Positions 27,071 to 53,180 of a stretch of DNA of 64,000 nt are shown here, one piece after another. The notes under the pieces are model-generated. The model had not been told where the DNA came from, ran no database searches, and was given only the letters and a program-made list of their open reading frames with translations. The stretch comes from Candidatus Accumulibacter cognatus (GTDB lineage Bacteria > Pseudomonadota > Gammaproteobacteria > Burkholderiales > Rhodocyclaceae), in the NCBI GenBank assembly GCA_013414765.1, contig CP058708.1:1669553-1733552 (forward strand), in the 5' to 3' direction. Both the position numbers and the translations under genes were made by a program. Numbering within the stretch: the stretch's first letter is position 1; every line of letters starts with the position of its first letter.

Positions 27071-28547
27071 CGGAACCTCCGTCGTCGTGACCGCGAGCGA
27101 AATCCGAATAGGCCGACAAGTCGGCCGGCGGCAACTCCAACTCGAGCACATCCTGACGGCGCATCAGCACAAGCGGACTGGCCTCCGGCAACTGTCGGGA
27201 GCGCGCCTCGATCAGATGCGCCACGTACTCGCTGCTGAACGCCTCGAACGCGAGGGCATCGGTCAGCGCCCGCACCACCGCGTCGTCGCCGTAGATCTCG
27301 GCCAGCGCCACGATCTTGCGCACATGCACGAGCGCATGGCCGCGTCGCTCCAGCAGGCCCGCGTGATAGCGCACCGCCAGCGGCGTCAGGGCAAAGAAAT
27401 GCCGCAGCACCTGCGCATCGCGGGCATGGCGGCGCTGCGCCACCAGGACTTTCGGATGATCGGGATCCTCGATGTCGCGGTGTCGCTCGAAGGAGCGGGC
27501 ATGGCGCGCGATCAAGTCCTCGCCGTGGTAAATGCACACGCGATCCGGATAGGCCTTGACGGTGACCTGGGCGCCGGCAAAGCGCGCCGGCACCGAATAG
27601 CGGTTGGCCTCGAAGTTCACCCGGAACTGGCGGGTGGCGTGCAGCGTCAGCACCCGGCCGACACCGAACGGACGGGGATTGACCGCGTGCAGATGCGCTC
27701 GCTCATCGGCCCACAGATCGGTCGGCCGGCGATGCGTTTCCCGATGCACCCGGACATTGGCGACCGATTCCAGCCAGACCTGCGCCGCCTGACCCAGTGC
27801 GGCAAAGTCCGGCAACTCCAGACCGGACAGGAAGTTGCCCTTGACATAGCCGACACCGCGTTCGACGCGCCCCTTCTCGTTGCCCTTCGCCACCGCGCAA
27901 GCCACCGGCTCGAAGCCGTAGTGGCGGGCGAAATCGAGATAGCGCGGATTGAACTGCGCCGCTTCGCCGCGCCTGTGCTGGAGCACCGCGCAGCGCAGAT
28001 TGTCGACCATCACCTTCCTTGGCACGCCGAGCGCATGGAAGCCATTGACATGCGCCGCGAGGAATTGCTCCATCGTCTGCGACAGCGTGAATTCGACGTA
28101 CATCTTCCGGCTGTACGCCAGCACCATGACGAAGAAGGACAGGCGCCGCCGGGTATCGCCGACGGCGATCGTCCCGAATTCGCCCCAGTCGACCTGGGCG
28201 GCCTCGCCCGGAGCAAAGGCGAGCGTCAGAAAGGCTTCCCGCGGACGCGGGCGGATGGCCCGCACATAATCCTTGACGATGCTGATGCCGCCGCCGTAAC
28301 CGTTGTCGCACAGCCGCTGAAAGACTTGCTGCGCCGACAGCGGATGGGCGTCGAGCCAGCCGACGATGCGGCCCTTGAAGGGATCGAGCCTGCTCGATCG
28401 GCGGACCGCTTGCCGCGGCGCGTAGGGGCGTCCGATCCAGTGGCGTACGGTCTTGACGTCGAGGCCCAGCGAAACCGCGAGTTGGGCGGCAGTCAGGTGT
28501 TTCGCAACGCCATCGCCAATGGCGGCCCAGGTCGCGTAGTCGATCAT
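27057..28547 (-). CDS. istA: IS21-family transposase IstA
   Basis: 496-aa DDE transposase. N-terminal helix-turn-helix (LTAAQLAVSLGLDVKTVRHW), integrase core with VDWGEFGTI (first Asp), KVMVDNLRCAVL (second Asp) and GNEKGRVERGVGYVKGNFL (Glu), followed by the Mu-type beta-barrel LHATRQFRVNFEANRYSVPA. Intact, so the element may be mobile. Confidence 0.93.
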   Translation of the reverse strand: MIDYATWAAIGDGVAKHLTAAQLAVSLGLDVKTVRHWIGRPYAPRQAVRRSSRLDPFKGRIVGWLDAHPLSAQQVFQRLCDNGYGGGISIVKDYVRAIRPRPREAFLTLAFAPGEAAQVDWGEFGTIAVGDTRRRLSFFVMVLAYSRKMYVEFTLSQTMEQFLAAHVNGFHALGVPRKVMVDNLRCAVLQHRRGEAAQFNPRYLDFARHYGFEPVACAVAKGNEKGRVERGVGYVKGNFLSGLELPDFAALGQAAQVWLESVANVRVHRETHRRPTDLWADERAHLHAVNPRPFGVGRVLTLHATRQFRVNFEANRYSVPARFAGAQVTVKAYPDRVCIYHGEDLIARHARSFERHRDIEDPDHPKVLVAQRRHARDAQVLRHFFALTPLAVRYHAGLLERRGHALVHVRKIVALAEIYGDDAVVRALTDALAFEAFSSEYVAHLIEARSRQLPEASPLVLMRRQDVLELELPPADLSAYSDFARGHDDGGSDGHD

Positions 28548-29620: not shown

Positions 29621-30185
29621 TCAACAGCGGCCAAGAAACCGCGGAAGTTTGGCGCCGCCAAGAGTGAGCAGGCCGTCGAGCGCGTTGCGAATCAGTGCAC
29701 GAGCCGTGTCGCGGTTTGGGCGATGCAGCTGGAAATTGGCGTTGACCACCGGGTGCGCAGCAAGGTGGCGCTGACGTTGCAGGTGCAGTAGGTTCTCCCG
29801 TTCGGCGAGGTCCAGCAACTGCGTCTGCTCTGCCACCGATTCCACCATCTTCGATTCCCATTCCGGAGATCGCTCGTTGGCCTGCTGCAGCTTGCCGATC
29901 TCGGCCAGGATGGTCTTGGCCTTGTCATCACCGTAGAGATCGACGAGATGCTGGAGCTTGAACAGCAGATCACAGACGACGACCGACCACAGCATCACGA
30001 CAGCCGACCGGTAGTTGCCCGCCGCAAAGCAGCTCAATACCTCTGAGCAATTCAACCCCGCGCACGGGCCAGGTGTTCGCCGAGAAAACAATGAGCTGCA
30101 GAACGTTTCCTTGAGACAAGTATTCGTTGCTGCGGGCGTCGAAGATCTGCGTTGTGCGTCGCTCGATGGAGTATTCGTCCAGCAT
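29621..30185 (-). pseudogene. last gene of the PglZ operon, frame-broken
   Basis: Starts MLDEYSIERRTTQIFDARSN at 30185 (TGATG overlap with the helicase stop) and then leaves frame; the continuation, EVLSCFAAGNYRSAVVMLW to KLPRFLGRC, is open in another frame to 29621. About 76 nt between the two halves (roughly 30036-30113) look extra, which shifts the frame. I recall intact relatives that run directly from the NEY to the EVL segment, as helical accessory proteins of DUF1156-type loci. Function unknown; probably inactive here. The IS21 element inserted about 30 bp beyond its end. Confidence 0.6.
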
Positions 30186-32965
30186 CACTCCTGCCGACCG
30201 ATGATTTCGACGTACCCAATCAACTCCGCTGAATAGCTGCCATCGCCATTCGCCGCTCCCTTGTGTTTCAGTTCCCGCTGCAGGGTCGGCTCAACGGCGT
30301 GGGTGAATAGGTCGCTTCGCTGCTCGGCCCGGAACACTGGTGTGGCGGGCGGTGCTTGCAGGAACTTCTCGCACAGGCGTTCGACCGCCGGAACGCGCGT
30401 GCCATCCTGCTTGACGGCGATGGGCTGCACGACCACGCGGCGTTCGCCCTTGCCAGCCGATGCTTCAACCATCCACAGCGACAGCAGCACCGGCTCGTCC
30501 ACGTCGCCCGACACGGCAATGCCGACTTCCTCTGGTGGCACGCTGCGCCAGCGGCCCAACTCGTCCTGCACCAAGGGGTGATCCAAGCCCATCAGTTGCA
30601 GATCGTCCTGATTGGTTGCGGCTTCGCGGCTCAGGGAGAAGCGGGCGCGGCGCGTGCCTTCGACGGTGACGAGGTCGTAGGTCACATCGTCCACCTTGAC
30701 CAGCTGCTGTTGGCGATCCACGACTGCCGCCGATAGAAAGCGCACCAGCCGTTCCAGGCTGGACGAAACGTCCGAGAAGGGCTTGTAGTCGTCGAGGCTG
30801 AAGCCGTCAAGGTCTTGGAACAGGTCGAACACCACCTGGCGCGCCTCGCGGGAGTTCGATAGTGCCGCCTCCAGTTCAACCTGCGTGCGTTTCAGCTCCG
30901 GGTCGGACAGCGCCTCCTGATACAGCCGGTCGTAGTTCAAACGCTCTGACAACTGGCCAAGAACCTGGGCGCGCAGGTCTTCCGCCACGTTGCCTTGGTC
31001 ATCCACCTTGCCAACCGTGCGCGCGATCTCGGTGAGCTTCTCGTCAAGCAGCAGGAAAATGCGGCCTTCGATGGTGTCCGACAGCACGAGATTGTAGACC
31101 TGCGCGGTGTGACTCTGGCCATAGCGATGGATGCGCCCGATACGCTGCTCCATGTCCATCGGATTCCACGTCAGGTCGAAGTTGAACAAGACGCGCGCAA
31201 ACTGCAGGTTGATGCCTTCCCGCCCGGCCGCCGTGCAGACCAGCACGCGCGGGCCGTCCTTCAAGCGAAAGCGCCGCTCCGCCGCCACCTTGGCTCCGTG
31301 GTCGCCGCCGCGCAGCACCACTACGCCCTGGCCGGGGAAGGTCTGTTCGATCTCACGGGCGATCATGTCCACCGTGCCGAGGTAGGTGGCAAAGACCACG
31401 ATCTTCTCGTTGGGGTTCTGTCGCCACAGCGTGCCCAAGCCATCGAGCAGCTTCTGCATCTTGGTTTCGCGCTCCGCCGGGAACACTCGCAGCAGGTCGC
31501 CGATGCGCAGACGCTCCTCGGGCAGATGCAGGTTCACCACCGCCGACGCGGCTTCTTCCGCGTGCGTGGCCGAATACTCGCTGCCGTAGGGGTCAGAGGC
31601 CATCTCCAGCGCCTCTTCGTCCAGCTTCTTGACCAGCCGGTACTTCAGGTCGGCCAGCACACGGTCTACCTCGCTGCGCCCGATGCTGTCGCGTGGGAGT
31701 CCGAACTCCTCGTGGATCAGCTCGCGTGCCTTTTCGGTCAGGCGCTCGCGACCTTCGATGTCCAGTTCTTTGTCGCGCAAGAACGCCTCGTGCAGCGTCA
31801 ACATCAACAGGCGGCGCTTTAACGTGCGGCGCACGGCGGCAAAGCTCGATGCCGCGATCTTCTGGAAAATCGCCATCACGAAGCCCAGCGCACGCCCCTG
31901 GTTGCCGTGGCGGCGCGCGAGATCGAAGCCGTCCTCCAGGTACTCGCGCAGCTTCGCGTAGAACAGGCGTTCGGAATGGCTCATCACGAAGGATTCGGTG
32001 TGAACCCAGCGCCGCGCGAACAACGGCGAGCCATCGGGCTGGCAGGCGTCCGCCTTGGTGCGACGGAACATCACCGTATTGAGCCGGTGCCGCTCCTCAA
32101 CCATCTCCTCAGGGTTGCGGAACAGTGTCGGGTTCAGCAGTTGCGCCAGCATCCAGAACTGGAAGTGATTGCCCTGATGCGGCGTGGCCGACAGCAGTAC
32201 GAGGTCGCGCGAGTGATCCTTCAGCGCCTCGGCCAGCTTGTAGTTCTCGGTCTTGCGCACCTTGCCGCCGGTGCGGTACGCGGTCAGATGGTGTGCCTCG
32301 TCGAACACCACCAGGTCCCAGCGCGGCGCGTCGAGCAGGCGCTTGATGCGTGCCGGGCGCTTCAGGGTGTCGATGCTGGCGATCAGCCGGTCGTGCTTTG
32401 CGAAGGCATTGGTCTTGCGATCGGTGATGTCGCCTTCGGAGCCGAAGACCTCGAAGTCGAGGTTGAACACCTCGTTCAGCTCGCGGTGCCAGTTGTTCAC
32501 GAGGCCCGCAGGCACCACCATCAAGGCGCGAATCAATTCGCCCCGACTGGCCAGTTCGCGCAGGATCAGCGCGGTTTCGATGGTCTTGCCCAAGCCCACC
32601 TCGTCGGCGATCAGGTAGCGCCGGGGTGAGGCGGTGGCGATGCGGTGTGTCAGCACCACCTGATGCGGCAGCAGGTCGATCTTGGCCGAGGTCAGCGCCG
32701 ATGCGCTTTCCATCACCGGCAGCGCGTACGCCTGGTAGGACAGCCATGCCTTGCGCGACCGCTCTGCGCCTGCATCCACGGCGCGCAGGATGCGCTCAGT
32801 GCGCGTGAGTTCGCGCCGCAGTGACGCCACCGGCACCCGCCGTTCGCCGACGCCGAAGAACGCACGCAGATAGCCGTCACGCGCCGGGTCGAGGACTACA
32901 CCCTGGCCGTACTCGTGATGGGTAATGCGCTCGCCGGGTCGGAACAGGGCTTCCACGTCGGTCAC
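30185..32965 (-). CDS. SNF2-family DEAD/DEAH helicase of the PglZ operon
   Basis: 926-aa ATP-dependent DNA translocase. Motif I ADEVGLGKTIETALIL, motif II VVFDEAHH, motif III LLSATPHQG, motif V VLVCTAAGREGINLQFA and VI MEQRIGRIHRYGQSHTAQVY. N-terminal small beta region (ITHHEYGQGVVLD) and a 250-aa C-terminal extension with no named domain. It is closest in layout to the RapA/DrmD-like helicases of DISARM and BREX. GTG start overlaps the DUF4276 stop (GTGA). Expected to act on DNA with the methyltransferase. Confidence 0.88.
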   Translation of the reverse strand: MTDVEALFRPGERITHHEYGQGVVLDPARDGYLRAFFGVGERRVPVASLRRELTRTERILRAVDAGAERSRKAWLSYQAYALPVMESASALTSAKIDLLPHQVVLTHRIATASPRRYLIADEVGLGKTIETALILRELASRGELIRALMVVPAGLVNNWHRELNEVFNLDFEVFGSEGDITDRKTNAFAKHDRLIASIDTLKRPARIKRLLDAPRWDLVVFDEAHHLTAYRTGGKVRKTENYKLAEALKDHSRDLVLLSATPHQGNHFQFWMLAQLLNPTLFRNPEEMVEERHRLNTVMFRRTKADACQPDGSPLFARRWVHTESFVMSHSERLFYAKLREYLEDGFDLARRHGNQGRALGFVMAIFQKIAASSFAAVRRTLKRRLLMLTLHEAFLRDKELDIEGRERLTEKARELIHEEFGLPRDSIGRSEVDRVLADLKYRLVKKLDEEALEMASDPYGSEYSATHAEEAASAVVNLHLPEERLRIGDLLRVFPAERETKMQKLLDGLGTLWRQNPNEKIVVFATYLGTVDMIAREIEQTFPGQGVVVLRGGDHGAKVAAERRFRLKDGPRVLVCTAAGREGINLQFARVLFNFDLTWNPMDMEQRIGRIHRYGQSHTAQVYNLVLSDTIEGRIFLLLDEKLTEIARTVGKVDDQGNVAEDLRAQVLGQLSERLNYDRLYQEALSDPELKRTQVELEAALSNSREARQVVFDLFQDLDGFSLDDYKPFSDVSSSLERLVRFLSAAVVDRQQQLVKVDDVTYDLVTVEGTRRARFSLSREAATNQDDLQLMGLDHPLVQDELGRWRSVPPEEVGIAVSGDVDEPVLLSLWMVEASAGKGERRVVVQPIAVKQDGTRVPAVERLCEKFLQAPPATPVFRAEQRSDLFTHAVEPTLQRELKHKGAANGDGSYSAELIGYVEIIGRQE

Positions 32966-33636
32966 TCATTCCCTCCGCACAACGCTTCCAAGCGATTCAA
33001 CCAGCCATCGAAATGCGGACATGCTGCGCGAACCGCTGCGATGCCGATCTTCTCCAGCAGCGTCGGGCCATCCGAAGTTTCCTTGTAGCCGCCTACCAAG
33101 GTTTTCAGCCGCGCCTTCGGGTGTGTATCCACGCCGTGATTGATCAGTTCCGGAGCACCCGCTTGCTGCACGACGGTCTGCAACCGGTGGGCAAGATGAG
33201 CTTTGCCGAAATGCGCTTCGACAGCATCCGGCGCGCTGAATAGCCACGCCTCGAACTCGTGCAGCGCCAAGAAAGGAATGAACCGCCGATGGTTCAACTC
33301 CACCGCGAAGCGTTCTTGCAGCGCCACGACCTTCTCACGCGGATCGCCCGCGCCCAAGGCTTCCGGCAGCCCCGGAAAGTCCTCCGGCAGTCCATAGAAG
33401 TCCAGCAGCGTACTGACCCACGCATCGCCGTCGCGCGTCAGCGGCAGCAGGCTCCGGCGAATCTGGCTCCAGTTCGACACGCCGCCACGAAAGCCACCAC
33501 CGCTGGGCAGGCGCATCGTCCACAGCACGATGGGCGACTCCACGAACACGCCATGCTGCGCCAAGTGAGGGGTCAACGTTCGCTTGACGAAAACTTCCTC
33601 GCTCTGGCCCTCCACCAGCATCAGAAGCCGCGTCAT
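32962..33636 (-). CDS. DUF4276 protein, TOPRIM-like
   Basis: 224-aa protein beginning MTRLLMLVEGQSEEVFVKR, the EGxSE acidic loop typical of DUF4276/TOPRIM nuclease folds; HEFEAWLFS is the second acidic block. Start ATG 33636 overlaps the AAA ATPase stop (ATGA), with GGAGG at 6 nt. Together the two resemble a split OLD-type or PARIS-type pair (ATPase sensor plus TOPRIM nuclease), and it is likely the killing or cutting arm. Confidence 0.78.
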   Translation of the reverse strand: MTRLLMLVEGQSEEVFVKRTLTPHLAQHGVFVESPIVLWTMRLPSGGGFRGGVSNWSQIRRSLLPLTRDGDAWVSTLLDFYGLPEDFPGLPEALGAGDPREKVVALQERFAVELNHRRFIPFLALHEFEAWLFSAPDAVEAHFGKAHLAHRLQTVVQQAGAPELINHGVDTHPKARLKTLVGGYKETSDGPTLLEKIGIAAVRAACPHFDGWLNRLEALCGGNE

Positions 33637-34703
33637 GGGCGACCTCCAAGCACATTCTTCTCCCACAGCTCGCCCAGGCTGAAGTCATCCAGCCACCCCT
33701 TTAGCTTCTCCAGGTCGAGCCGGTTGAACGTGGTTTTCAGGCCATCATTTTCCGCGACGATTACGTCCTGCACTGCAAAGTTGTTGAGCAGCGTCACCGA
33801 CTGTGTTGCCAGCAGCACCTGCCCGCGCTTGGATGCAGCCTCCAGCATCTCGGCCAGAATCCGGATGGCGAAGGGATGTAGGCCCAACTCCGGCTCGTCG
33901 AGCAAGATCAACGCGGGCGGGCTCGGTTGCAGCAGCAGCGTGGCAAGGCAGATGAAACGCAAGGTGCCGTCGGACAGCGCATAGGCGTCGAAATACGCAT
34001 CCGAGCCTTTTTGTCGCCATTCCAGCTTGATCTTCTTCTCGTTGAGCTTGCTCGGTGCCAGCACGAAGCTCTCGAAGAATGGTGCAACCAACCGGATGTG
34101 CTCTTCAATGTGGCCGAAGTGCACCGGGTGCCTTTCCTGCAACCAGTAGAGGTAGGCAGGGAGATTGGCCGCGTCGGAACGGAAGAAGCGGTTGTCGTCC
34201 ACGTCTACCGTTTGCTTGGCGGGCGAAGTGTCCGAGGTGTCGTGAAAGTGATAGACCACGACGTTGCGCACCTTGGGGAATACGTACTTCGGAATCTTGT
34301 TGTGGTACGACTGTGCGGCCGCTTCCAGCTTGCTTTCCTTGTGGCCCATGGCGATGGGTTCGCCATAGTTCCAGAAGCCGCTGTATTGCACGCGTTCGTC
34401 CTCGAAGATCAGCGTGTCTTGTGCCGCTTTGAGCTTGAAGCCGTAGGAGTTCTGGGCGAAGGCGAAATTCAGTGACAGTGCGGGCGTGGTTTTTCGCCCG
34501 TGGAACAGGAAGCGATCCGGCTCGCTGGCAACGTAAAGCTGGAGGTGGTGCGTCAGCACCCGTTCCAGCAAACGAAACACGCCGATGAGGTTCGATTTGC
34601 CCGACCCGTTCGCGCCGATGATCACGTTGAGATCGCCCAGTTCCAGCACGGCGCTCTCGATGGACTTGAAGCCTTCGATTTTCACCTTCCGCAAGGTTTT
34701 CAC
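33633..34703 (-). CDS. AAA (ABC-type) ATPase, OLD/RloA-like
   Basis: 356-aa ATPase: Walker A LNVIIGANGSGKSNLIGV, a long insertion, then ABC-type signature region ALSDGTLRFICLATLL and Walker B ALILLDEPELGLHP, with the His switch in LLATQSVTLLNN. GTG start after AGGAGG. This class senses phage or DNA damage cues in several abortive systems. No TOPRIM domain is fused; the DUF4276 gene downstream supplies one. Confidence 0.85.
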   Translation of the reverse strand: MKTLRKVKIEGFKSIESAVLELGDLNVIIGANGSGKSNLIGVFRLLERVLTHHLQLYVASEPDRFLFHGRKTTPALSLNFAFAQNSYGFKLKAAQDTLIFEDERVQYSGFWNYGEPIAMGHKESKLEAAAQSYHNKIPKYVFPKVRNVVVYHFHDTSDTSPAKQTVDVDDNRFFRSDAANLPAYLYWLQERHPVHFGHIEEHIRLVAPFFESFVLAPSKLNEKKIKLEWRQKGSDAYFDAYALSDGTLRFICLATLLLQPSPPALILLDEPELGLHPFAIRILAEMLEAASKRGQVLLATQSVTLLNNFAVQDVIVAENDGLKTTFNRLDLEKLKGWLDDFSLGELWEKNVLGGRP

Positions 34704-34712
34704 CGTGGCCTC

Positions 34713-35210
34713 CTAGGTGATTCGCGAATGAAAAAGGCCAACGTGCCTGCCGCCGTTGCGCAGCAGGATTTCCTGCGGGTACTCGTTGGCTTGGCCCCAC
34801 AGGATGCGACCGAGGTCGATCTGATGTCCGTGAGGTGCGTGGCACAGCCAACCCACCTCATCGGTGGCTGGGTGCGCTCTGACGCGGTTTTGGCCGCCGG
34901 GCAGCCAGAACACCAGCGCCCCATCGCTTCCCCATTCATCCTGAAAGGACAGGATGGCGGGCTTGATCGCATCGCCTAGCCACGCTTCGGCATCGCCCGG
35001 CGTCAGCAGGTCGAGGCTGCCATCCAGCCCGGCTACAACCAGCGTCCTGCCGCCATTGCTGGGCAGGTCGTCCGGCCAGTTTCCTTTCGCACGGAGGAAC
35101 TGGCGCAGGCTCCAGACCTCGCTGGCTGCGCAGATCTGGTTGCGGGCCTCTTCGTCCCACACCCAACTGGTGCCTCGCACCTGCCAGACCGGGTCGCGCA
35201 GTTGTCTCAT
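34713..35210 (-). CDS. 165-aa protein of unknown function in the PglZ operon
   Basis: No domain I recognise. Mixed alpha/beta, Trp-rich: WQVRGTSWVWDEEARNQICA, GLDGSLDLLTPGDAEAWLG, GALVFWLPGG and a C-terminal HVGLFHSRIT. No membrane segment or signal. Overlaps the methyltransferase stop by four bases (ATGA) and ends 10 nt before the ATPase start, so it is expressed with them. It may be a system-specific adaptor. Confidence 0.6.
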   Translation of the reverse strand: MRQLRDPVWQVRGTSWVWDEEARNQICAASEVWSLRQFLRAKGNWPDDLPSNGGRTLVVAGLDGSLDLLTPGDAEAWLGDAIKPAILSFQDEWGSDGALVFWLPGGQNRVRAHPATDEVGWLCHAPHGHQIDLGRILWGQANEYPQEILLRNGGRHVGLFHSRIT

Positions 35211-38200
35211 TGTTCGTACTCCCCATCGTCATCGAACAAGGAACCCTGCGCGGGTTGGGGTGCCTGGCTGGCGTGCCATGCGTTGTAGATGGACACCGCG
35301 CGCGAGGCTGCGTTGCGGGTGGTCTGATCCGGGCCGTTACGGTGCAGCCATTCCAACAAAGGCTTGAGCGCGACGTGCGGCTTGAAGTTGTCGTTCTTCA
35401 GCGTGTCCGAGGCATTGATGCCGCTCCCGTCAAAGCACGCGCCGATCAGCACCAGCGCCTGATCCAGATCCGACTTGAGATTGCGGCGATGCTTGCCTGA
35501 CCACTCGCGGGCGAAGTCCAGCGGATTGATGCGGGTGAACACCTTGTTCTTCTCCGCGCACCAGCCGCGCTGCACGAACTCGTCCGGCGTGGTGATCGAG
35601 CCCTTCAGGAATTTCTGCAACTGGTCGCGCTTCAGCTCAGGCGCGTTGCCGAAGGTGCGCAGGAATTGGCGCGTGATCGGCTCGGCGTTCACCGGTGGCG
35701 GTTCCTTACCCTTGTCGGCATCCTCGTCGATGAGCTGGTTGATGCCGACCAGCGCGTCGCGCACGGTGATGGTGCGGCCTTCGTCCACATAGACCTTGCC
35801 GTAGTGGCGCGAGAAATATTCCAGCGCCTTGCCACGCCGAATCACCTGGATGTCGGCGGCGGGCAGTCCTTCTTTCGCGTGGTTTTCCAGCATGGCCTGC
35901 AACTGACGCACGTCGGCCATCACCTCGCGGCGCATCCGGCCCCAGCTCACCGGCTTGGGTTCTTCGGTGCGCTTGCGGCAGACGTGGATGATGTCGTACT
36001 CGATGGTCTTGGAGCCGAATTCGCCTTCGCCCTTGGTCTCGTCGGAGCGGATCGGATACGTCGCTTCGAGGTAGTAGCCCGCATCAAACAGCGACTCCAG
36101 CACCGCCACCCACGGCTCGTCCTCGCTGTGGTGGAAGGTAAATGCCAGAATGCCGCTGGGCTTGAGCACGCGGTGCGCTTCGCGCCAGCACTGCGTGAGC
36201 AGGCGCTGGTAGAAGCCATCCGGGTCTTCCGGCTCACGCGCGCGGTTGGCGACCGCCTCCAGCGATTTGGGTGTGTATTCCGTGCCGAAAATTGCTGGGT
36301 ATTTGTCCTTGAGTACTAGGCGCAACCAGACGTAGAAAAAGTCCGCAATCTCAGAGTACTGCACCAAGTCGCCAAAAGGTGGATCGGTGATGACCAGATC
36401 GAGGCCGGCCGTGGGGACGTGCGTGAGATCGGTGGACGAGCCCTGGTACACGCTGACTTCGCCCACGGGATCGCCTGGGTAGACCTTTTCGCTTTTGCCC
36501 GAAAGCTGCTCTGCCACAACTGGAGCGTGTCGCTTCAGATATTCTGCGCTGACAGCCTCCCATGGGGTTTTCGCCCACTCACCCCCTTTGAAAAGCACTT
36601 CCACCGTCGAAGTCCAGGGGCCGTAACCCATCGGAGGAAATACGCCGACTTCCACCACATTGTTCTTCGGATGGAAATTGCTGCCTGACAGTGCTGGAGC
36701 CAACTTATCCAGCTTCATATGCCAGAACGCGAACATGCTCTGGTTGCGAAGGTAGTTCTGAAAGCCGCCAAGAACGTACTCACGCGTCTTCCAGTCGTAA
36801 CTACCTAGCTCAACGATGGCCTTCAGCAGTTGCGCGTGAACGAGCAGCTGGCGCGGGTTGAACATCGTCCACCAGTGTGAGTGGTGATGCCCCTCCACAT
36901 CGTGCGGCCCAATTTCTGCGCCGATTGGAATCGCGCTACGAGGCCAGTATTCCTTAAGATCGGCATCCTTGCGCGCATCCCATTCCGCAAGGGCGGCGTC
37001 GTACTGCTGGCCATATGCCGTGTCGAATGCAGCGAAAAAACGCCCACCGTAGGGCTTGCCCGCCGCATCGCGCTTGGGTGCATAGCCTTGAACTCCGTAA
37101 GCGGCCATCGGCCCGGTCTTGCCCGTGGTCTTAATGGTGGTCATCACATCCTGCACCGTGCCGCAGGCCGAGCAGGTGTAGTGTGATCTCTTCGGCACCG
37201 TGCCTTTCTCGGGCGCAAAGGTGACACCCGTCTCCGGGTCGGTCACTTCATCAGGCAGCGCGCCGCGCACTTCCAGCAGGCGAATCTTCGCGGCGCGTGC
37301 TGCGTCCCACCGCGCGGTCGCTGCCGCATCGTCCTGCGCCGAACCGCCGTAGGGCTGGCCGTTGGCATCCTGCTTCGCCTCGCCCGCCAGCCATTGCGGA
37401 TGCACCAACAGGCTCAGTTCCACCTTTTTGTTCTTGCCCTTGCCCAGATTCACCATCGCGGTGTGGCCGCAATGCGGACAGATCACGCCCTTCTTGCGGT
37501 CGAGCACGGAGTACGGCGCTTCGGTGGGCGCGACGTAGAACGGCGCATCAGGTGCCATGCGCGCGGCTTCTTCCTCCACGTCAAAGGCTTCGCCGCACTT
37601 GCCGCAGGCATGTGCCCAATGCTTGACGGTGAGGGTCTTCACCGCCATTACCGGGCTGGTCATGATCGGCGTGCGGTGGCCGCAGCCCGTCACTTGGCAG
37701 GGCCCGTGCTTGGCCCAGAAGGTGTAGATGATCTCCGGGCCTTCGTAGCGGTAGTCCTTGCGCTCGTCACGCGGGATGGCGAGCGGGTCGAAGTCGGCAG
37801 GCATCGCCTTGTTGCTGGGCAGATGCGTCCACTTGCCTTTCTCACCCTGCGGGCCATCGCAGTAGTAGTACGGCATGATCTGCGGCTTCACTTCGGCCTC
37901 GATGTCGGCGAGCAGCTTCTTCACTTGCTCCAGATCGACATTGGCCAGTTCCTGCTTCACCACGAACCACGCGACCGGGTTGAGGTCGTTGCCGACTATC
38001 TGCATCCCGAGGCGCGAGCCTTCCACCAGCGTGGTGCCGCCGCCCATGAAGATGTCCGCCACCTTCAGGTGTTTGAACGCGCCTTTCTTCTGGTGGTTGG
38101 CGTAGTAGTTGTCCCACACCAGTTTGGCTGCGTGCGACGGGTCGTCCGGCGCTTTGGTGGCCGCCGCGATCAACATCGAGCGGAACACGCTGGAACGCCG

Positions 38201-38413
38201 CCGCGCCCACCACTTCGACATCTGGTAGATCGGCTTGCCCGCGTTGCCCTCGATGATCGCCACCTGATTGACGGGCAGGATGGGGAAGTCCACCTCAAGA
38301 CAGGTCTTGGGGCGGTTGGGATCGTTGAAATCGACCGTTTCCAGCGCGGCCGCCTTGCCAGCGCCGACCGCCTTTGCGACCTCTTGAGCCAGTCGTTGTT
38401 TCTTGGTGGCCAT
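35207..38413 (-). CDS. DUF1156 DNA methyltransferase
   Basis: 1068-aa protein. N-terminal DUF1156 block (CLEVDFPILPVNQVAIIEGN, then KWWARRRSSVFRSMLIAA); SAM site ADIFMGGGTTLVEGSRLG; catalytic motif LDLVITDPPFGDLVQYSEIA, the DPPY/F form of adenine-N6 or cytosine-N4 enzymes; a later HRVLKPSGILAFTFHHS strand. The middle has several CxxC pairs (CGKCG, CPHCG, CSACG), so zinc ribbons are likely. DUF1156 enzymes sit in defence islands with DUF499 ATPases. It probably marks self DNA, as PglX does in BREX; target site unknown. Confidence 0.88.
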   Translation of the reverse strand: MATKKQRLAQEVAKAVGAGKAAALETVDFNDPNRPKTCLEVDFPILPVNQVAIIEGNAGKPIYQMSKWWARRRSSVFRSMLIAAATKAPDDPSHAAKLVWDNYYANHQKKGAFKHLKVADIFMGGGTTLVEGSRLGMQIVGNDLNPVAWFVVKQELANVDLEQVKKLLADIEAEVKPQIMPYYYCDGPQGEKGKWTHLPSNKAMPADFDPLAIPRDERKDYRYEGPEIIYTFWAKHGPCQVTGCGHRTPIMTSPVMAVKTLTVKHWAHACGKCGEAFDVEEEAARMAPDAPFYVAPTEAPYSVLDRKKGVICPHCGHTAMVNLGKGKNKKVELSLLVHPQWLAGEAKQDANGQPYGGSAQDDAAATARWDAARAAKIRLLEVRGALPDEVTDPETGVTFAPEKGTVPKRSHYTCSACGTVQDVMTTIKTTGKTGPMAAYGVQGYAPKRDAAGKPYGGRFFAAFDTAYGQQYDAALAEWDARKDADLKEYWPRSAIPIGAEIGPHDVEGHHHSHWWTMFNPRQLLVHAQLLKAIVELGSYDWKTREYVLGGFQNYLRNQSMFAFWHMKLDKLAPALSGSNFHPKNNVVEVGVFPPMGYGPWTSTVEVLFKGGEWAKTPWEAVSAEYLKRHAPVVAEQLSGKSEKVYPGDPVGEVSVYQGSSTDLTHVPTAGLDLVITDPPFGDLVQYSEIADFFYVWLRLVLKDKYPAIFGTEYTPKSLEAVANRAREPEDPDGFYQRLLTQCWREAHRVLKPSGILAFTFHHSEDEPWVAVLESLFDAGYYLEATYPIRSDETKGEGEFGSKTIEYDIIHVCRKRTEEPKPVSWGRMRREVMADVRQLQAMLENHAKEGLPAADIQVIRRGKALEYFSRHYGKVYVDEGRTITVRDALVGINQLIDEDADKGKEPPPVNAEPITRQFLRTFGNAPELKRDQLQKFLKGSITTPDEFVQRGWCAEKNKVFTRINPLDFAREWSGKHRRNLKSDLDQALVLIGACFDGSGINASDTLKNDNFKPHVALKPLLEWLHRNGPDQTTRNAASRAVSIYNAWHASQAPQPAQGSLFDDDGEYEQ

Positions 38414-38425
38414 TTGGTGCAGCCC

Positions 38426-38827
38426 TTACCGTATTGACTGCATGTGAAGCTCCGAAACGCGGAACATCGGCTTGGTTGATTGTTCTGCCGTAACAAATTC
38501 ATCGACACCCGCATCCAACGCCATTGCGGCATGGATGGCATCCATAGCCGCAATTCCATGCTTTTCCGCCAGATCGTGGGCACGATATAGCGTGCCTGTG
38601 CTCCAATTCAGACATTCGGCCTGATCTAATACGGTGTCGTAAAAGTCGATTTCCTGTTGCCGCTTTTCATACCGTGGCTTTGGCAGCACCTCCAACCGAA
38701 CGGCATCACTGGCTACTAAGGCACGATCAGGATCATCGAGGATTTCGATGGCACGCTGACCTAGTGCGCCTTCTCCTCGAAACGCAGCAATGAGTAGATT
38801 GGCATCGATGTAGGTTCTTTTAGGCAT
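38426..38827 (-). CDS. PIN-domain ribonuclease toxin
   Basis: 133-aa VapC-like protein: first acidic residue in TYIDANLLIAAFRGE, second in VRLEVLPKPRYEK, third in HGIAAMDAIHAAMAL and fourth in EFVTAEQS. Overlaps the upstream small gene by 8 nt, the typical antitoxin-toxin arrangement. Lies between TIGR04255 and the DUF1156 gene. Confidence 0.82.
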   Translation of the reverse strand: MPKRTYIDANLLIAAFRGEGALGQRAIEILDDPDRALVASDAVRLEVLPKPRYEKRQQEIDFYDTVLDQAECLNWSTGTLYRAHDLAEKHGIAAMDAIHAAMALDAGVDEFVTAEQSTKPMFRVSELHMQSIR

Positions 38828-39179
38828 CGACTACCCCCCCACGTCGCAACTGCATTTCTGCGTCCAGACCATCACCATTGAGAAGCTGCCCGCCTGTAGT
38901 TACATATGCTCTGCGCAGAGCAATCAACTTACGCCCCAGTTCAGTACGCGGGCGATAATTGTCCACTACGGCATCTCCCGTTATAGAGGGCTGGATACGG
39001 ATAGTCATTCCGGTATTGCCCCGCAGGTAAGCAGGCCGGATTTCGTTTGTGCTTCTTCGTGTTGTTGGAGACGTAGTTTGGCCTGCATCAGGTAATGACA
39101 TAGGCAAAAGCACCACAAGTCCAGCCATAACTGCCGCAAGGGGGGTTGAACCAGGTATCTGGTAAGTCGCGTTAGTCAT
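38820..39179 (-). CDS. probable antitoxin of the PIN pair, with unusual N-terminal extension
   Basis: 119 aa from ATG 39179, three bases after the TIGR04255 stop. The C-terminal 62 residues (MTIRIQPSITGDAVVDNYRP to LRRGGVVDA) are the likely antitoxin. The first 58 residues hold a hydrophobic stretch, TPLAAVMAGLVVLLPMSLP, strange for an antitoxin; they may instead be leader DNA, with translation from ATG 39008. No clear Shine-Dalgarno supports either. Confidence 0.5.
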   Translation of the reverse strand: MTNATYQIPGSTPLAAVMAGLVVLLPMSLPDAGQTTSPTTRRSTNEIRPAYLRGNTGMTIRIQPSITGDAVVDNYRPRTELGRKLIALRRAYVTTGGQLLNGDGLDAEMQLRRGGVVDA

Positions 39180-39181
39180 GC

Positions 39182-39931
39182 TCAATACTCCGGCTCCATT
39201 AGTTCAATGGCTTTGTCCGTCAAGATATTTTCGAAAAAGAGAGCTTTTGAGCGCTCATGCAAGTGGTCAATCTGGGTTGCAATTTCACTCCACCCCTTGA
39301 GGCTTTCAGCAGGGAAAGTTTCCAAGTCAACAATCGCCCCATCTTTCATGCCTTCGGGGAATTGAACTTGTGCGGGAGTCGCTATCTGCACGACATGAGT
39401 ACAATTGCCCTCCAGCAGTTCGACACGCGTTTGCATTGGCCTGCTTTGAATGTCGAATGCCCCCATCTTCATCGACATCTGCAAGAACGAAAGACTCGGT
39501 GCTGGCTCCAGCGTAAGCAAATCGATATATCTTAGAGAATGACGCATCGGCGCAGGCACGAGACCGCTGTTTTCGACGACCTTGACGAGCGCGAGAATTT
39601 TTTCCTTGAACTCAGTCCATCCCGCATACGGCCGACGACAGTTCAGAGTGATGATCCGGTCGCCCACCTGAAATATGAACGGAGAATTTTTATCCTCCAT
39701 CCGGTACTTTGCCATGTGGCGCAGATTAGGGTCGAATTGAGCCATCTGAGCGGGTATGTCCGCTGACGGCAGGCGTTCGAGCTGAAGACCTCCATGCTGA
39801 CTACGTAATGCAGTAAAGAGGACTCCTGGTAGAAGGTCACCAATTGGCACACCGGCTGCCGATTCGAATTGAACCTGCCAAATTGCTTCTATGAGCGGTT
39901 CTTTCTTGAGACGTTTCGGAATTCGATTCAT
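39182..39931 (-). CDS. TIGR04255 family protein
   Basis: 249-aa protein with the family opening LKKEPLIEAIWQVQFE and R-Y-I-D pattern LRYIDLLTLE. Family members are sporadic, often in defence islands, with unknown activity. ATG 39931 follows the PglZ stop by one base (TGATATG), with GGAG at 6 nt. Confidence 0.75.
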   Translation of the reverse strand: MNRIPKRLKKEPLIEAIWQVQFESAAGVPIGDLLPGVLFTALRSQHGGLQLERLPSADIPAQMAQFDPNLRHMAKYRMEDKNSPFIFQVGDRIITLNCRRPYAGWTEFKEKILALVKVVENSGLVPAPMRHSLRYIDLLTLEPAPSLSFLQMSMKMGAFDIQSRPMQTRVELLEGNCTHVVQIATPAQVQFPEGMKDGAIVDLETFPAESLKGWSEIATQIDHLHERSKALFFENILTDKAIELMEPEY

Positions 39932-39932
39932 A

Positions 39933-40943
39933 TCAGTCTCCATTTTTTGAAATTTCGATGAACGGCGACAGCACTTCCAGCAGCGACAGGCCGCCATGCG
40001 TGAGCGTCGGGTAGCCGCCCTGGCCGCGCCATTTCCTGCGGCCCAGGGCCAACAGGTGCGCGCCGTGCGGGCTGGTGATCTGCAAGGCAACGGGCGGCAC
40101 GAAGGGACCACAGTCGTTTTGTGTCAGGCCCGCGCCGGGTTTGTTGCGCCCGTTTGAGAACGTCTGCCTGAGGAACTGGCCGACTTCGCCATCGGCATCG
40201 GGGAAGTAGCCGGTGGCCGCGTAGCCGTGGTCGGAGGTGATGACCAGCCGCCGGCCGCTGGCAAGGCGCTCGACGAAGGCCCAGAAGGCGTCACTGGTCA
40301 GTTGCTCGGCGACGTCCTTGGTCAGCGGCTCCAGCCCCTGGCCTGCGCCGGAGCCGTCGTGCAGCTTGGCGTCGGGCCAGTGGTGCCAGAAGATCTGGTT
40401 CGGCGTGCTGCCGATCAGGGCTTCGCAGTCCTTCCACGGCCAGTCCGCGGTTTCGGTGCTGGCGGCTTGCAGCTTGTGCGCGAGGCCGCCGCCGTTGTTC
40501 TGGAGCTTGCTGCGGCTGGCGAAGCCGAGCGCGCGGGCGAACTCGTCGGTCTCGCCGGGCAACTCGGAGGCACAGGCAGCGACCTCGTGCGTGGTGAAGC
40601 CGCGTTCCTTCGCACCCTGCAGCAACCACGGCAGTTCGCGCAGGGAAAGGCCGTCGAGGATCAGCACCGCCTTGGCGCTGAAGGGCTCAGCCCACCAACG
40701 CGTCAGGCGATCCGAGGTGCGCTCCACGCTGTCGCCGAAGGCTGGCCACAAGTCCCAGCCGCTGGAGGAGAGGAACAGATCCAGCGCGCCGATTTCGCGG
40801 TCGCGCCGGACGACCTCGCTGGGCGCATTGCCTGCGGCCAGCGGCTTTCTGGCGATCTCGACAGCCTGATCGACGATGACGCGCCAAGCATCGGCGTCGG
40901 AGCCTTGGGTCAGGGCCTGCAAGGCCCCGGCGGTCAGTGCCAT
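39933..40943 (-). CDS. PglZ-like alkaline-phosphatase-superfamily protein
   Basis: 336 aa. Metal-site segments AKAVLILDGLSLRELPWLLQ (first Asp), VITSDHGYAATGYF (Asp-His) and LTHGGLSLLEVLSPFIEI, which is the PglZ C-terminal signature THGGxS. PglZ proteins are the constant part of BREX and Pgl systems, with a phosphatase-like active site whose substrate is not settled. Shorter than typical PglZ (600-900 aa): only the core is present. Overlaps the DUF499 stop by one base. Confidence 0.85.
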   Translation of the reverse strand: MALTAGALQALTQGSDADAWRVIVDQAVEIARKPLAAGNAPSEVVRRDREIGALDLFLSSSGWDLWPAFGDSVERTSDRLTRWWAEPFSAKAVLILDGLSLRELPWLLQGAKERGFTTHEVAACASELPGETDEFARALGFASRSKLQNNGGGLAHKLQAASTETADWPWKDCEALIGSTPNQIFWHHWPDAKLHDGSGAGQGLEPLTKDVAEQLTSDAFWAFVERLASGRRLVITSDHGYAATGYFPDADGEVGQFLRQTFSNGRNKPGAGLTQNDCGPFVPPVALQITSPHGAHLLALGRRKWRGQGGYPTLTHGGLSLLEVLSPFIEISKNGD

Positions 40944-43672
40944 CAATCGTCCTCCTTCTCAAGGTTCAGCTCGAAGCTCATGCCTTCAGGCAGCTTCTTG
41001 AGCAGTTCCTTGAGCTGCGCGCCAGTGGCGGCGGACACCTTGATGGACACCTCCGCGACCTTGGTGGCCGGGCCAATCCCCCAGCCTTCGATCTTGCCGA
41101 TCAGGTTGAGCGGCGACGTGGCGGGGTTCGACAGAGGCGTGCGCGGCTTGGTGGTGCCGCCGTCGCCGCCGAAGATGCCGCCCGGCGTCGGCCCTGGCGT
41201 CGGAGTGGGCGAGCCACCTGGTGTGGGGGCGGGCACGCTTGGCGTGGGGGTCGCTCCACCACCGGATGGCGTACCACCCGGCGACGGCGCGGGCGGCTTT
41301 GAGCCACCCGTTGCGGGCACAGCCGAGGGCAGCATCACGAACACGTCGTCGAGATGGCGGCCCGTAAGCGAGAGCTTGGGGCGCAGACGCCGCCACGCGG
41401 TGTCGTCGTCCTCGCCCGGGTTCGTTTGCAGGTACTCCATGCCGCGCACGTTGATGGCGACCTTGCCCTTGGCGCACAAACGCAGCAGGCGTTCTTTCAT
41501 CGCCGTCTCGCCCAGCCACGGGATGCAGTCCTGCCCGGCAGGGCGCGGCTCCTGCAGCTCGCGCAGGAGCTTGCCGACCGATTCGTTGTTGCTGGCGTAT
41601 TCGAGCACCAGTTCCTCGAAGTCCTCGGGCACGAACAGGTCGCCGGTCAGCGCCTCCTCGATGGCTTCGGGAATCTGCGAACCCTGCTTGTCGAGGCGTT
41701 CGACGCTGAACTTGCACTGCGCGGGGTCGGCGAAGTTCCAGCGTTGCAGCACGGCGAAGCGGTCGAAGCGTTTTTTCAGGTTGTCGCGCAAGGTGCTCTC
41801 GAACTCCTTGTGCAGCTTCCTGTATTCAGGGTTCTGGCTGCTCCATTCCTGCGCCTTCATTTCGGCACGGGCGAGGATGAGCAGGTCGCGATCCATGAAG
41901 GAGTTGGTACTGCCCGCGCGCGGCAGCAGGAAGCGCACGGTGTTGCGGCGCTTCTGCAACTGGTCTTTGAGCCAGCGGCCCAGCGTGGCGTCGAGCTTGT
42001 CGGCCTCCTCGGGCAGCACGAGGATGGGCAGACGAGCATCCCACTTGTCGGGCTGCTCGGCTTCATCGAGCGCCGTCCACGGATCATTGACCCACGATTT
42101 CGGCAGGGCGATCACGCGGAAGGTCTTGGCGACCTCGTCGCTTCCGCCGATGACGTAGCGCACCTGCTTGGCGAGCTGCGCCTGATCCGCCCCGTCGGCG
42201 AACAGCCTGTCGTTGCGCGCGTAGGCCATGAGCTTGGCGCGCGGGTTCTCTTCCTCGCGGAACAGCAGCTTGGTGCCGACCAGATGGATATTGAAGCTGT
42301 TCTCGACGATGGTCGCCAGCTCGACCTGGAAGGCGTTGTCGTCCACCGGCTTGCCACGGGTGATGTCCAGTTGCAGCGTGGCGGGTTCGGCTCCGGCGAG
42401 GTTGCCGACGGCAATCGAGCGCAGCCACAGCGCGCCGATGATTTCCTGCAGGTGCGGCGCGATGCTGGCGTAGTCGTGCCGCGCTTCCTGCACCGAGATG
42501 ATGTTCTGCTGCGCCTTCTCGCGCAGGGTGCGGTGGTGCTGGTTGGCGACGGCTTCGAGCAGCGCGCCAATACCCGAGGTGTCATCATCCAAGCGAAAGT
42601 CGGCAGCGGTGAGGACGGGCACGGCCTCGCCACGGCGCTTGTAAAGGTTGGCGAGGATGCGGATCAGGTCGCGCGTTTCCTGCGCATCGGTGGCGATGAG
42701 CACCTGTTCTTCGAGCAGGCGCAGCAGGTGCGGCGCGTAGGGCCACGATTCGGTGAACTCCCGGCGCTTGCGCCCCTGCTCGGCGGACGGCACGTCGAGC
42801 AGGCGGAAGGATTCGGCGACGTGCTGCGCAACCAGCGATTCGATGGTGCCGCTGGCGACCTGCAAGCGGTTGTCGAACAGGCGGTGCAGCAGCATGCGGC
42901 GGCGATCCTGCTGGATGCGCTCGGCGCTGCCGCCCGCCTTGAAGTCGATGGGGACCGGGTTGACGCGATGCACCTGCTGGTAGGCGTCGCTGCCACCGTT
43001 GCGCACCGAGATCACCAGTACCAGCAGGTCGGGGCGCTCCTTGGCGATCTCCGAAAGAATCTGGATGAAGTTGAACGCCCAGTTCTTCCACGGGTACTGC
43101 TTGGTGTTGGTGAGGCCGTCGTACCACGTCTGGAACTCGTCCAGCAGCAGCATCGTCGGCTTGTTCTCCAGCAGCTCGATGATGAGCCTGTCGGACGGGA
43201 TTTCGGTCTTGGACGCAGCTTGGCCTTCCCACTTGCCCTTGATGAAGGTGCCGTGCGGATGGTTCTCGAACAGCACATCCCATAGAAATTTGTAACGCTG
43301 GCGATGCAGGCTTTCGCCAATGACGTGCATCCCGTCGCGCAGGGCGATCTTGCCGATGGTGGCGTCGGCCAGCGTGGTTGCCCATGCAGTGAGCCACGAG
43401 CGGGTCGAGCTGGGGTCGGTCACCGCGTGGTAAAGCGCGGCCATCAAGTGCGACTTGCCGAGGCCGCGTTCGCCGATCACGACCACGGGGCGGCCCTGGT
43501 TGGGACCGACCGCCTCGATGCTTTTCAGCAGATCATGCGTAGGATAGGTGATCTCCAGGAACTCCTTGGCGGCGATCTGCGTTGCGCCGGTTTTTGAGTC
43601 GTTGGAGAGCTCAATGGCCGTGCCCTTGAGGCGTTTGCCCCGGAATTCTTCGCGTAGCGTCAGTCCAAGCAT
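40943..43672 (-). CDS. DUF499 ATPase
   Basis: 909-aa AAA-type ATPase. Walker A VVVIGERGLGKSHLMAALYH near residue 75 and Walker B TMLLLDEFQTWYDG, then a long helical body. Residues about 785-850 form a Pro/Gly/Thr linker (GGTPSGGGATPTPSVPAP) leading to a small C-terminal domain. DUF499 proteins act beside DUF1156 methylases in defence loci and resemble BrxC/PglY in size and order. ATG 43672 shares a base with the HTH stop (TAATG). Confidence 0.88.
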   Translation of the reverse strand: MLGLTLREEFRGKRLKGTAIELSNDSKTGATQIAAKEFLEITYPTHDLLKSIEAVGPNQGRPVVVIGERGLGKSHLMAALYHAVTDPSSTRSWLTAWATTLADATIGKIALRDGMHVIGESLHRQRYKFLWDVLFENHPHGTFIKGKWEGQAASKTEIPSDRLIIELLENKPTMLLLDEFQTWYDGLTNTKQYPWKNWAFNFIQILSEIAKERPDLLVLVISVRNGGSDAYQQVHRVNPVPIDFKAGGSAERIQQDRRRMLLHRLFDNRLQVASGTIESLVAQHVAESFRLLDVPSAEQGRKRREFTESWPYAPHLLRLLEEQVLIATDAQETRDLIRILANLYKRRGEAVPVLTAADFRLDDDTSGIGALLEAVANQHHRTLREKAQQNIISVQEARHDYASIAPHLQEIIGALWLRSIAVGNLAGAEPATLQLDITRGKPVDDNAFQVELATIVENSFNIHLVGTKLLFREEENPRAKLMAYARNDRLFADGADQAQLAKQVRYVIGGSDEVAKTFRVIALPKSWVNDPWTALDEAEQPDKWDARLPILVLPEEADKLDATLGRWLKDQLQKRRNTVRFLLPRAGSTNSFMDRDLLILARAEMKAQEWSSQNPEYRKLHKEFESTLRDNLKKRFDRFAVLQRWNFADPAQCKFSVERLDKQGSQIPEAIEEALTGDLFVPEDFEELVLEYASNNESVGKLLRELQEPRPAGQDCIPWLGETAMKERLLRLCAKGKVAINVRGMEYLQTNPGEDDDTAWRRLRPKLSLTGRHLDDVFVMLPSAVPATGGSKPPAPSPGGTPSGGGATPTPSVPAPTPGGSPTPTPGPTPGGIFGGDGGTTKPRTPLSNPATSPLNLIGKIEGWGIGPATKVAEVSIKVSAATGAQLKELLKKLPEGMSFELNLEKEDD

Positions 43673-43902
43673 TACTTCCGATCCCCCTTGTTCGATGCCT
43701 TGCTCGCGGCGCGTTCGGGCTTGCCTGCCGATTGCTGCTTGATCCAACTCTCGATGTCGCTGCGCGAGAACCGCCACGTTCCGCCGAGCTTGAACGCCGG
43801 GATCTCCCCGCTGGCTGCGAGCCGATAGATCGTGCGCTTGCCCGCTTTCAGGTAGGCCGCAACCTCGTCCAAGGTCAGGATGTCGCTATCAGGCTCTGCC
43901 AT
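43672..43902 (-). CDS. excisionase/MerR-type helix-turn-helix protein, first gene of the PglZ operon
   Basis: 76 aa: DILTLDEVAAYLKAGKRTIY then GEIPAFKLGGTWRFSRSDIE, the DNA-binding excisionase fold (helix_turn_helix_17), and a Lys-rich tail. ATG 43902 follows AGGA at 6 nt. Being the first gene, coupled to DUF499, it is likely the operon's own regulator rather than an excisionase. Confidence 0.78.
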   Translation of the reverse strand: MAEPDSDILTLDEVAAYLKAGKRTIYRLAASGEIPAFKLGGTWRFSRSDIESWIKQQSAGKPERAASKASNKGDRK

Positions 43903-52942: not shown

Positions 52943-52965
52943 GTTTCGCCCCTTGAGTGTGCCCA

Positions 52966-53180
52966 TGGTGGAGCCCCGCCATGGGCACGCAATGAAGTCA
53001 TGGGCACAACTGCCTGAATCCCTCTCTTTGCCTGGTTTGCAGCCACTTGTACGCCTCCTTGTTTCGCCCTTCTTTTTGATTTCCTGGAAGCGGAAAACGT
53101 CGTCTTGCTTTTGATTCCGCTTTTCGACTGTGCCCATGGTCACGTCCGAATTCACACCATGGGCACAACCATGGGCACAA
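52966..53180. repeat. arm-type repeats next to the integrase
   Basis: At least five copies of ATGGGCACAA or its complement, near 52968, 52981, 53001, 53130, 53159 and 53171. The same motif recurs at the island's left end, as expected for integrase arm sites. Confidence 0.55.

Follow-up and report, generated by a model that had tools for sequence, protein, structure and literature searches.

Type-3 BREX-Related (BR) systems were defined in January 2026 by Rakesh and Krishnan in Nucleic Acids Research (NAR; PMC12839542), in a study covering 569 taxa, as combinations of DUF499, an N6-methylase, a BrxHII-like helicase, a standalone PglZ and an inactive STAND subunit, the last of these in 82% of taxa. 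The main text of that study describes a zinc-finger insert in the methylase, an N-terminal DUF1156 helical domain and a C-terminal RRM in DUF499. It relates these families to BrxC, BrxXI and BrxHII of BREX, places DUF499 in a clade separate from BrxC, and proposes a backup-effector theme for embedded nucleases and OLD-ABC pairs. Here we analyzed an operon of eleven genes (positions 30185-43902, minus strand) in a stretch of 64,000 nucleotides (nt) from Candidatus Accumulibacter cognatus (assembly GCA_013414765.1, contig CP058708.1, positions 1,669,553-1,733,552), referred to throughout as the window. Based on our analyses, the five-gene core of this operon is probably a Type-3 BR defence system, with the genes between the core genes being cargo that likely serves as backup effectors.

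The likeness to the Type-3 BR systems, as set out in the main text of PMC12839542, comprises a DUF499 ATPase, a zinc-finger N6-methylase, a helicase in which a Pfam scan found no nuclease domain, and a standalone PglZ. In addition, the eight conserved zinc-ribbon cysteines of the window's methylase would form two 4C fingers, as in the smaller subset of that paper. The operon differs in that its 165-amino-acid (aa) protein is only a candidate inactive STAND. It shares with BREX (types 1-6) a PglZ fold, a BrxH-like helicase and an adenine methylase, but has DUF499 and not BrxC/DUF6079, a core of five genes, and a PglZ without extra domains (about 336-337 aa). Hma, in the outline given by PADLOC and PMC8565338, likewise has a trio of helicase, methylase and ATPase, to which the window's core adds PglZ and the 165-aa protein; the Hma models, given without cut-offs, scored 301.4 bits (HmaA, SNF2 helicase), 124.2 bits (HmaB, best stretch residues 671-899) and 18.0 bits (HmaC). 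Two of the cargo genes are an adjacent and overlapping HEC-01A and HEC-01B, a candidate pair in PADLOC that lies here between two core genes. The ATPase of this pair is a distant relative of AriA of PARIS (AriA/AriB; PADLOC 115.7 bits, AriA structure E 2.3e-4), but its partner is a DUF4276 protein and its HEC-01A score is four times higher.

A preliminary description of the same DNA had interpreted these genes as a probable defence operon with PglZ, DUF499, a DUF1156-type methylase and an SNF2 helicase as its main parts, and this proposal stands. Its suggestion that the full set might be undescribed does not, as the core matches the Type-3 BR system defined in PMC12839542. The further claim that the families differ from those of known systems at every position except PglZ was overstated, given the relationships to BrxC, BrxXI and BrxHII drawn in the main text of that paper and the BREX-type profiles also matched here: the best PADLOC profile of the SNF2 helicase was BrxHI/BrxHII (a model described as BrxHI; residues 94-875, Table 1), the BrxHII model gave 261.8 bits, and the methylase matched PglXI at 72 bits. 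The core has been known since January 2026. SIR2, subtilase, IetAS and TIGR04255 have no occurrence in the main text of PMC12839542, whose supplements may list such loci or cargo, and the pattern of cargo slots reported below is therefore a modest addition and not a new kind of system. Among the papers listed in literature searches, no title or abstract opening described exchangeable whole systems inside BR operons, and no paper was returned that links TIGR04255 with defense or DUF4276 with anti-phage activity.

A five-gene core and its recurrence

A search with the methylase against genome_contigs (84,980 species) identified 248 relatives, the best 80 of which were used as loci; distant relatives were therefore unsampled. 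By record title these loci were chiefly from Proteobacteria, with others from Acidobacteria, Synergistaceae, Planctomycetia and further groups. Scoring with trimmed window proteins identified DUF499 in 75 of the 80 loci, PglZ in 76, the methylase in all 80 (by construction, being the query), the 165-aa protein in 79 and the SNF2 helicase in 79, in the constant order DUF499, PglZ, methylase, 165-aa protein, SNF2 helicase. Because the same five genes recur in the same order in relatives, the gene order of the window is not due to chance. Both the co-occurrence of the core genes elsewhere and the constancy of the 165-aa partner, as anticipated in the preliminary description, were thereby borne out. 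DUF499 was missing from five loci (L029, L056, L078, L086 and L087), in which 64-1,195 bases lie upstream of the methylase start, and PglZ from four (L056, L078, L086 and L087), with room for it in L086 only. L056, a 3,996-base contig, was the sole locus without the 165-aa and SNF2 genes.

A relative of the HTH regulator was found in 33/80 loci, and within 40 nt of DUF499 in 32/75. The gene heading the operon varies: besides HTH_17, it appeared by eye to be XRE/HigA-like (L031 group) or CopG-like (L035 group), it is of the HigA family by annotation in L149, and in many loci no heading gene was found. The HTH protein of the window (43672-43902) scored 77.3 bits (cut-off 80) with MAD1, the regulator of the methylation-associated defence system MADS.

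Profiles built from other core genes gave the same picture. A profile of the 165-aa protein, built from the window and 39 of the 79 sequences, matched 5 of 398 phylum genomes, and all four matches outside the window's own genome adjoin the methylase. With a PglZ profile (window plus 27 of the 76 sequences) 6 of 299 genomes matched. All four strong matches other than the window's own have DUF499 upstream, and downstream there is IetAS (two), TIGR04255 followed by the methylase (one) or the methylase (one); the sixth match was weak (E 1.3e-5), its short locus showing no other core gene. Some genomes in the profile searches probably belong to species that are also represented among the 80 loci (G532 and L079 gave equal identities). 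With an E value of 1e-20 or lower, matches to the methylase itself were found in 17 of 369 class genomes. One of these is the window's own genome, and two of the matches (L003 and L004) are close and have core neighbors. Among E. coli genomes there was no near match to it.

The motifs of the core proteins are conserved: the Walker A pattern of DUF499 was present in 71/71 full-length relatives, the DPPF motif of the methylase in 78/78, and the helicase motifs of SNF2 were intact in 69/69 checked. Pfam did not call the window's PglZ protein as PglZ, PF08665 matched 3 of 28 PglZ relatives (best E 0.0051), and a PDB sequence search returned PorX at E 0.17 only, ranked below two designed proteins. 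Pfam and the PDB sequence search were thus insufficient for this protein, and fold and profile comparisons were needed; both recovered the PglZ identity, in agreement with the earlier naming of a PglZ core. Its candidate site residues are invariant and its motifs were intact in 76/76 full-length relatives. Based on the predicted fold, the 336-aa protein is a standalone PglZ with candidate metal-site residues. The window's genome also holds a second PglZ-domain protein (G000:C1:2375065-2375268, L001; a 392-aa open frame, 25.9 bits), whose 3.2-kb locus gave no match to the window operon proteins.

In the methylase, cysteines 239, 244, 270, 273, 312, 315 and 414 were present in all rows and Cys 417 in 91%. 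Residues 540-665 were hypervariable. Across 634 pairs whose flanks (residues 20-180 and 700-1030) were at least 90% identical, this region had a mean identity of 61% and fell below 60% in 55.5% of pairs, as against means of 78% and 75%, and 0.9% and 6.5% of pairs, for control segments 200-325 and 330-455; the controls were restricted to these two, as four other segments overlap the flanks used to pick the pairs. Such variability would be expected in the part of a self-marking enzyme that recognizes the target. A second hypervariable stretch lies in DUF499, at residues 781-840 (window 41153-41332), just before the C-terminal part, with 41-56% identity among close pairs that average 84% over the whole protein. 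Profile comparison of the 165-aa protein with BrxB and BrxF gave no signal, and homology to them was rejected on that basis; a control against PglZ likewise gave none. A VIA-align search with the fold of the 165-aa protein showed no BrxB chain among the 50 matches listed, which excludes nothing.

Cargo at fixed gene junctions

The remaining genes of the window had a different distribution. TIGR04255 occurred at the operon position in 2/80 loci only (L020 and L079), relatives of the antitoxin and PIN genes in 1/80 (L020), and the OLD-ABC ATPase and DUF4276 genes in 7/80, the same seven for both. The constant co-occurrence by which the preliminary description would have defined the system therefore fails for these genes. 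An untrimmed TIGR04255 reading frame had given a spurious 33 loci, because its first codons overlap PglZ in another frame; trimming left two loci, and TIGR04255 was rejected as a core component. The TIGR04255 family was found in 17/143 class genomes, the window's own included, with no relatives among the viral contigs, and a PDB search gave one weak match (E 0.17). A second TIGR04255 protein is encoded outside the operon in the window's genome (G000:C1:770534-771313, L156). The pair of DUF4276 and ATPase was identified in three other genomes, in short loci showing no core gene.

An insert was counted where more than 300 nt separated neighboring core genes. Slot A, between PglZ and the methylase, was filled in 24/76 loci, slot B, between the methylase and the 165-aa gene, in 7/79, and slot C, between the 165-aa and SNF2 genes, in 9/79. 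The junction of DUF499 and PglZ had inserts in 0/75 loci, and the three slots differed from it with Fisher p values of 1.4e-8, 0.014 and 0.003 (relatedness ignored). In the window, slots A and C are occupied. Slots A and C could be scored in 77 loci, window counted: 33 of these carry cargo and 44 have none in any slot, and slot A is empty in 52. A link between occupancy of slots A and C was not significant (6/10 vs 19/67, p = 0.07).

Cargo types, assigned by clustering and scans of ten representatives, include whole known or candidate defence systems. Slot A held IetAS (an AAA ATPase and a subtilase) in eight loci, SIR2-HerA in eight (one of these, L068, with a shortened SIR2 alone), TIGR04255 in three including the window, and other genes in six. 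Slot B held Schlafen-AlbA type genes in three loci and small unknown genes in four, and slot C held HEC-01 in eight, window included, and Schlafen-AlbA type genes in two. IetAS, SIR2, HerA and HEC-01 are PADLOC names.

The content of the slots has changed repeatedly. A methylase tree with 81 rows required 16 changes for slot A occupancy, 8 for IetAS, 8 for SIR2-HerA and 6 for HEC-01; this tree and those of the other core genes are quick trees with many weak forks, which cannot separate gain from loss. Compared with 200 label shuffles, IetAS (8 vs mean 7.8) and SIR2-HerA (8 vs 7.7) behaved like random labels, occupancy was somewhat clustered (slot A 16 vs 21.2, slot C 7 vs 9.6), and HEC-01 was somewhat clustered also (6 vs mean 7.8; 2/200 shuffles as low). 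With occupancy clustered and IetAS and SIR2-HerA scattered, a filled slot is partly inherited, but its content is exchanged. Unshuffled counts on the DUF499, PglZ, 165-aa and SNF2 trees were 13, 14, 16 and 13 for slot A occupancy, 8, 6, 8 and 5 for IetAS, 8, 6, 7 and 6 for SIR2-HerA, and 7, 7, 6 and 6 for HEC-01, each of the three systems lying on separate branches of the core-gene trees.

Alignments of related loci located the insertions at fixed gene junctions. In six of seven pairs differing in cargo, DNA homology stops and resumes within about 40 nt of gene edges, the exception being L039 vs L036, in which it restarts 162 nt inside SNF2. The window and L019 have 91% DNA identity as far as 39955, where 22 nt of PglZ are left; homology restarts at the methylase start (38413), breaks off at 34728, with 15 nt of the 165-aa gene to go, and restarts at 32945 (20 nt inside SNF2). 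L026 and L033 have 93% DNA identity on both sides of slot A and carry IetAS and SIR2-HerA, respectively. They form a natural pair with near-identical surroundings and different cargo, in which the host dependence of embedded modules is directly testable. The ATPase of the window shares 85% identity with its counterpart in L079, although the methylases of these two loci are 71% identical; their DUF4276 proteins share 67%. A Hydrogenophaga metagenome-assembled genome holds two core copies (L022 and L060) with about 85-86% DNA identity. Slot A contains IetAS in one copy and SIR2-HerA in the other, and the two could come from co-binned strains.

Favored reading, mechanism and alternatives

Together, these data correct the reading of the operon: what is constant in it is a BREX-related system already published, and several apparent new components are cargo. 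The cargo pattern shows where relatives insert whole defence systems in the operon, and the survey draws attention to the 165-aa core protein.

Several observations weigh against the assignment of the core as a Type-3 BR system. L086 lacks PglZ despite 1.2 kb of sequence upstream of its methylase. The other 14 methylase matches in the class genomes were remote (about 26-31% identity), and their loci (2.4-4.2 kb) had no other window core gene, save one weak DUF499 match. The DUF1156 match of the methylase (residues 43-90) reached 16.4 bits, below the Pfam cut-off of 24. For the 165-aa protein, profile comparison with BrxB and BrxF gave a probability of about 0.1% (alignments of 5 and 2 sequences) and fold matches were weak, and the STAND feature of this protein therefore stays a candidate.

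The likely mode of action of the core is BREX-like restriction with embedded backup effectors. From the BR model in the main text of PMC12839542 and the parts observed in the window, we infer methylation of host adenines, scanning by ATPase and helicase, and an attack by PglZ on unmarked DNA; the defence function, a methylation site, nuclease activity of PglZ, co-transcription and the role of the cargo are proposals of the same kind. The methylase would modify adenine residues, its variable target-recognition region determining the site. A DNA-scanning complex may be formed or fed by the DUF499 ATPase together with the 165-aa protein and the SNF2 helicase. Where this complex meets unmarked (foreign) sites, it would license PglZ, a putative hydrolase of the metal-dependent phosphodiesterase type, which would then attack the DNA or stop it from being replicated. 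The cargo is probably transcribed with the core and probably provides backup or abortive effectors.

A more speculative extension, which we regard as possible but doubtful, is that three docking slots make the Type-3 BR core a chassis, into which whole, separately known defence systems are swapped at the borders between genes, and that these modules act as guards. The slot pattern itself is observed; the guard function is conjecture. SIR2-HerA, IetAS, HEC-01, Schlafen-AlbA and PIN modules would come into action once an anti-restriction protein of a phage had disabled the core. They would be a modular and exchangeable counterpart of PrrC, which is carried within a type I restriction operon.

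Among the alternatives to the Type-3 BR reading, the one that survives best, itself improbable, is that the core is an epigenetic or stabilizing methylation operon of mobile elements and not antiviral restriction. An integrase adjoins the operon, and the 165-aa protein was found on 37 of 72,556 plasmids, 32 of them predicted conjugative, and the core or its end on seven contigs of the viral collection. Against this, the helicase and PglZ motifs are intact in all full-length relatives checked, the partners are listed by PADLOC as defence systems, and the methylase has a hypervariable region, as expected of restriction specificity.

We consider it very unlikely that all eleven genes make up a single obligate system, so far undescribed, to which TIGR04255, PIN and HEC-01 would be integral. 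The window gene set without HTH recurs once, in L020, and TIGR04255 in slot A was accompanied by OLD-ABC/DUF4276 in slot C in 3/3 loci (window, L020 and L079), both of which would suit such a system. However, L020 is the window's sister on the methylase tree, and the full gene set may therefore go back to a single event. The frequency of empty slots, the TIGR04255 family elsewhere in the class and the DUF4276/ATPase pairs in short loci without a core gene also argue against it. A divergent form of canonical BREX, or of DISARM, is likewise a very unlikely identity for the core, as Pfam at E 0.01 gave DUF499 and not DUF6079 (BrxC), PglZ has no extra domains, and SNF2 scored 294.8 bits, far under the DrmD cut-off of 610.

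Gene layout and genomic setting

All the genes named in the preliminary description were present on the minus strand with open reading frames (Table 1). Family names were taken from Pfam, NCBIfam and PADLOC scans of the window proteins. The families DUF499, DUF4276, PIN, SNF2, AAA_21 and TIGR04255 scored above cut-off, but DUF1156 did not. The TAATG, TGATG, ATGA and GTGA junctions had been read correctly, TAATG being where the HTH gene overlaps the DUF499 gene, but overlaps of 1-8 nt do not hold throughout: six of ten junctions overlap and four are gapped (PglZ and TIGR04255, 1 nt; TIGR04255 and antitoxin, 173; PIN and methylase, 12; 165-aa gene and ATPase, 9). The ATPase and DUF4276 genes overlap by 34 nt with a GTG start or 4 nt with an ATG start, and the DUF4276 start is more likely at 33636 than at 33666, the Met at 33636 being invariant in 8/8 sequences. 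A longer reading frame of the 62-aa antitoxin-like gene had no NCBIfam match.

Table 1. Operon genes in order of transcription, followed by neighboring features of the window.
Feature	Position	Strand	Evidence or remark
HTH_17/excisionase-type regulator, 76 aa, first gene of operon	43672..43902	-	Pfam HTH_17 69.2 bits
Core 1, DUF499 AAA+ ATPase, 909 aa	40943..43672	-	PF04465 30.9 bits, cut-off 23
Core 2, standalone PglZ (alkaline-phosphatase-superfamily hydrolase), 336 aa	39933..40943	-	Profile and fold comparison
Cargo slot A, TIGR04255 family protein, 249 aa	39182..39931	-	NCBIfam TIGR04255 115 bits, cut-off 30
Cargo slot A, probable antitoxin of PIN protein, 62 aa	38820..39008	-	8-nt overlap with PIN; role inferred
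Cargo slot A, PIN-domain protein, probable toxin RNase	38426..38827	-	PF01850 41.6 bits, cut-off 23.6
Core 3, DUF1156-type N6-adenine methylase, 1068 aa	35207..38413	-	PF01555 31.6 bits, cut-off 26.7
Core 4, 165-aa protein; Walker-less alpha/beta fold, candidate inactive STAND	34713..35210	-	
Cargo slot C, OLD/ABC-type ATPase (HEC-01A)	33633..34703	-	PADLOC HEC-01A 468.2 bits; AAA_21 above Pfam cut-off
Cargo slot C, DUF4276 protein (HEC-01B)	32962..33666	-	PF14103 162.8 bits; PADLOC HEC-01B 242.2 bits
Core 5, SNF2 helicase, 926 aa	30185..32965	-	Helicase/ATPase Pfam families; PADLOC BrxHI/BrxHII 332 bits
Tyrosine integrase at 3' end of mnmE	51629..53155	-	Phage_integrase 91 bits, Arm-DNA-bind_3 78 bits
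mnmE	53292..54662		
dsbD	23743..25521		
Group II intron reverse transcriptase/maturase	45507..46844		Same island
IS21 istA-istB pair	26324..28547		Same island

The operon lies in a probable integrative island, its likely carrier, between dsbD and mnmE and next to the dnaA-gyrB region. Exact repeats of at least 15 bases were absent between the mnmE end region and 20-50 kb. One 13-base repeat, out of register, occurs at 53170 and 25846, and within the window the 12-mer TCCAATACAGAA is confined to two sites, 53298, which falls in the end of mnmE, and 25776. A scan with a 24-mer from the mnmE end gave 17/24 at 25772, a value reached by 1/60 shuffled queries. The left end of the island near 25776 is a candidate only.

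Of the plasmids encoding the 165-aa protein, 28 are from Klebsiella. Three plasmid regions examined hold the five-gene core (L148 and L149 by tblastn, L180 by annotation), and in two of them a SIR2 and an ATP-binding (HerA-type) gene lie between PglZ and the methylase. The core was present on five of the seven viral-collection contigs and the end of the core on the other two. On a Citrobacter IncN plasmid (L180:1-1588) the system lies beside a Tn7-like tnsE gene, and on a Klebsiella IncR plasmid (L148:1152-17548) it lies between IS26 copies.

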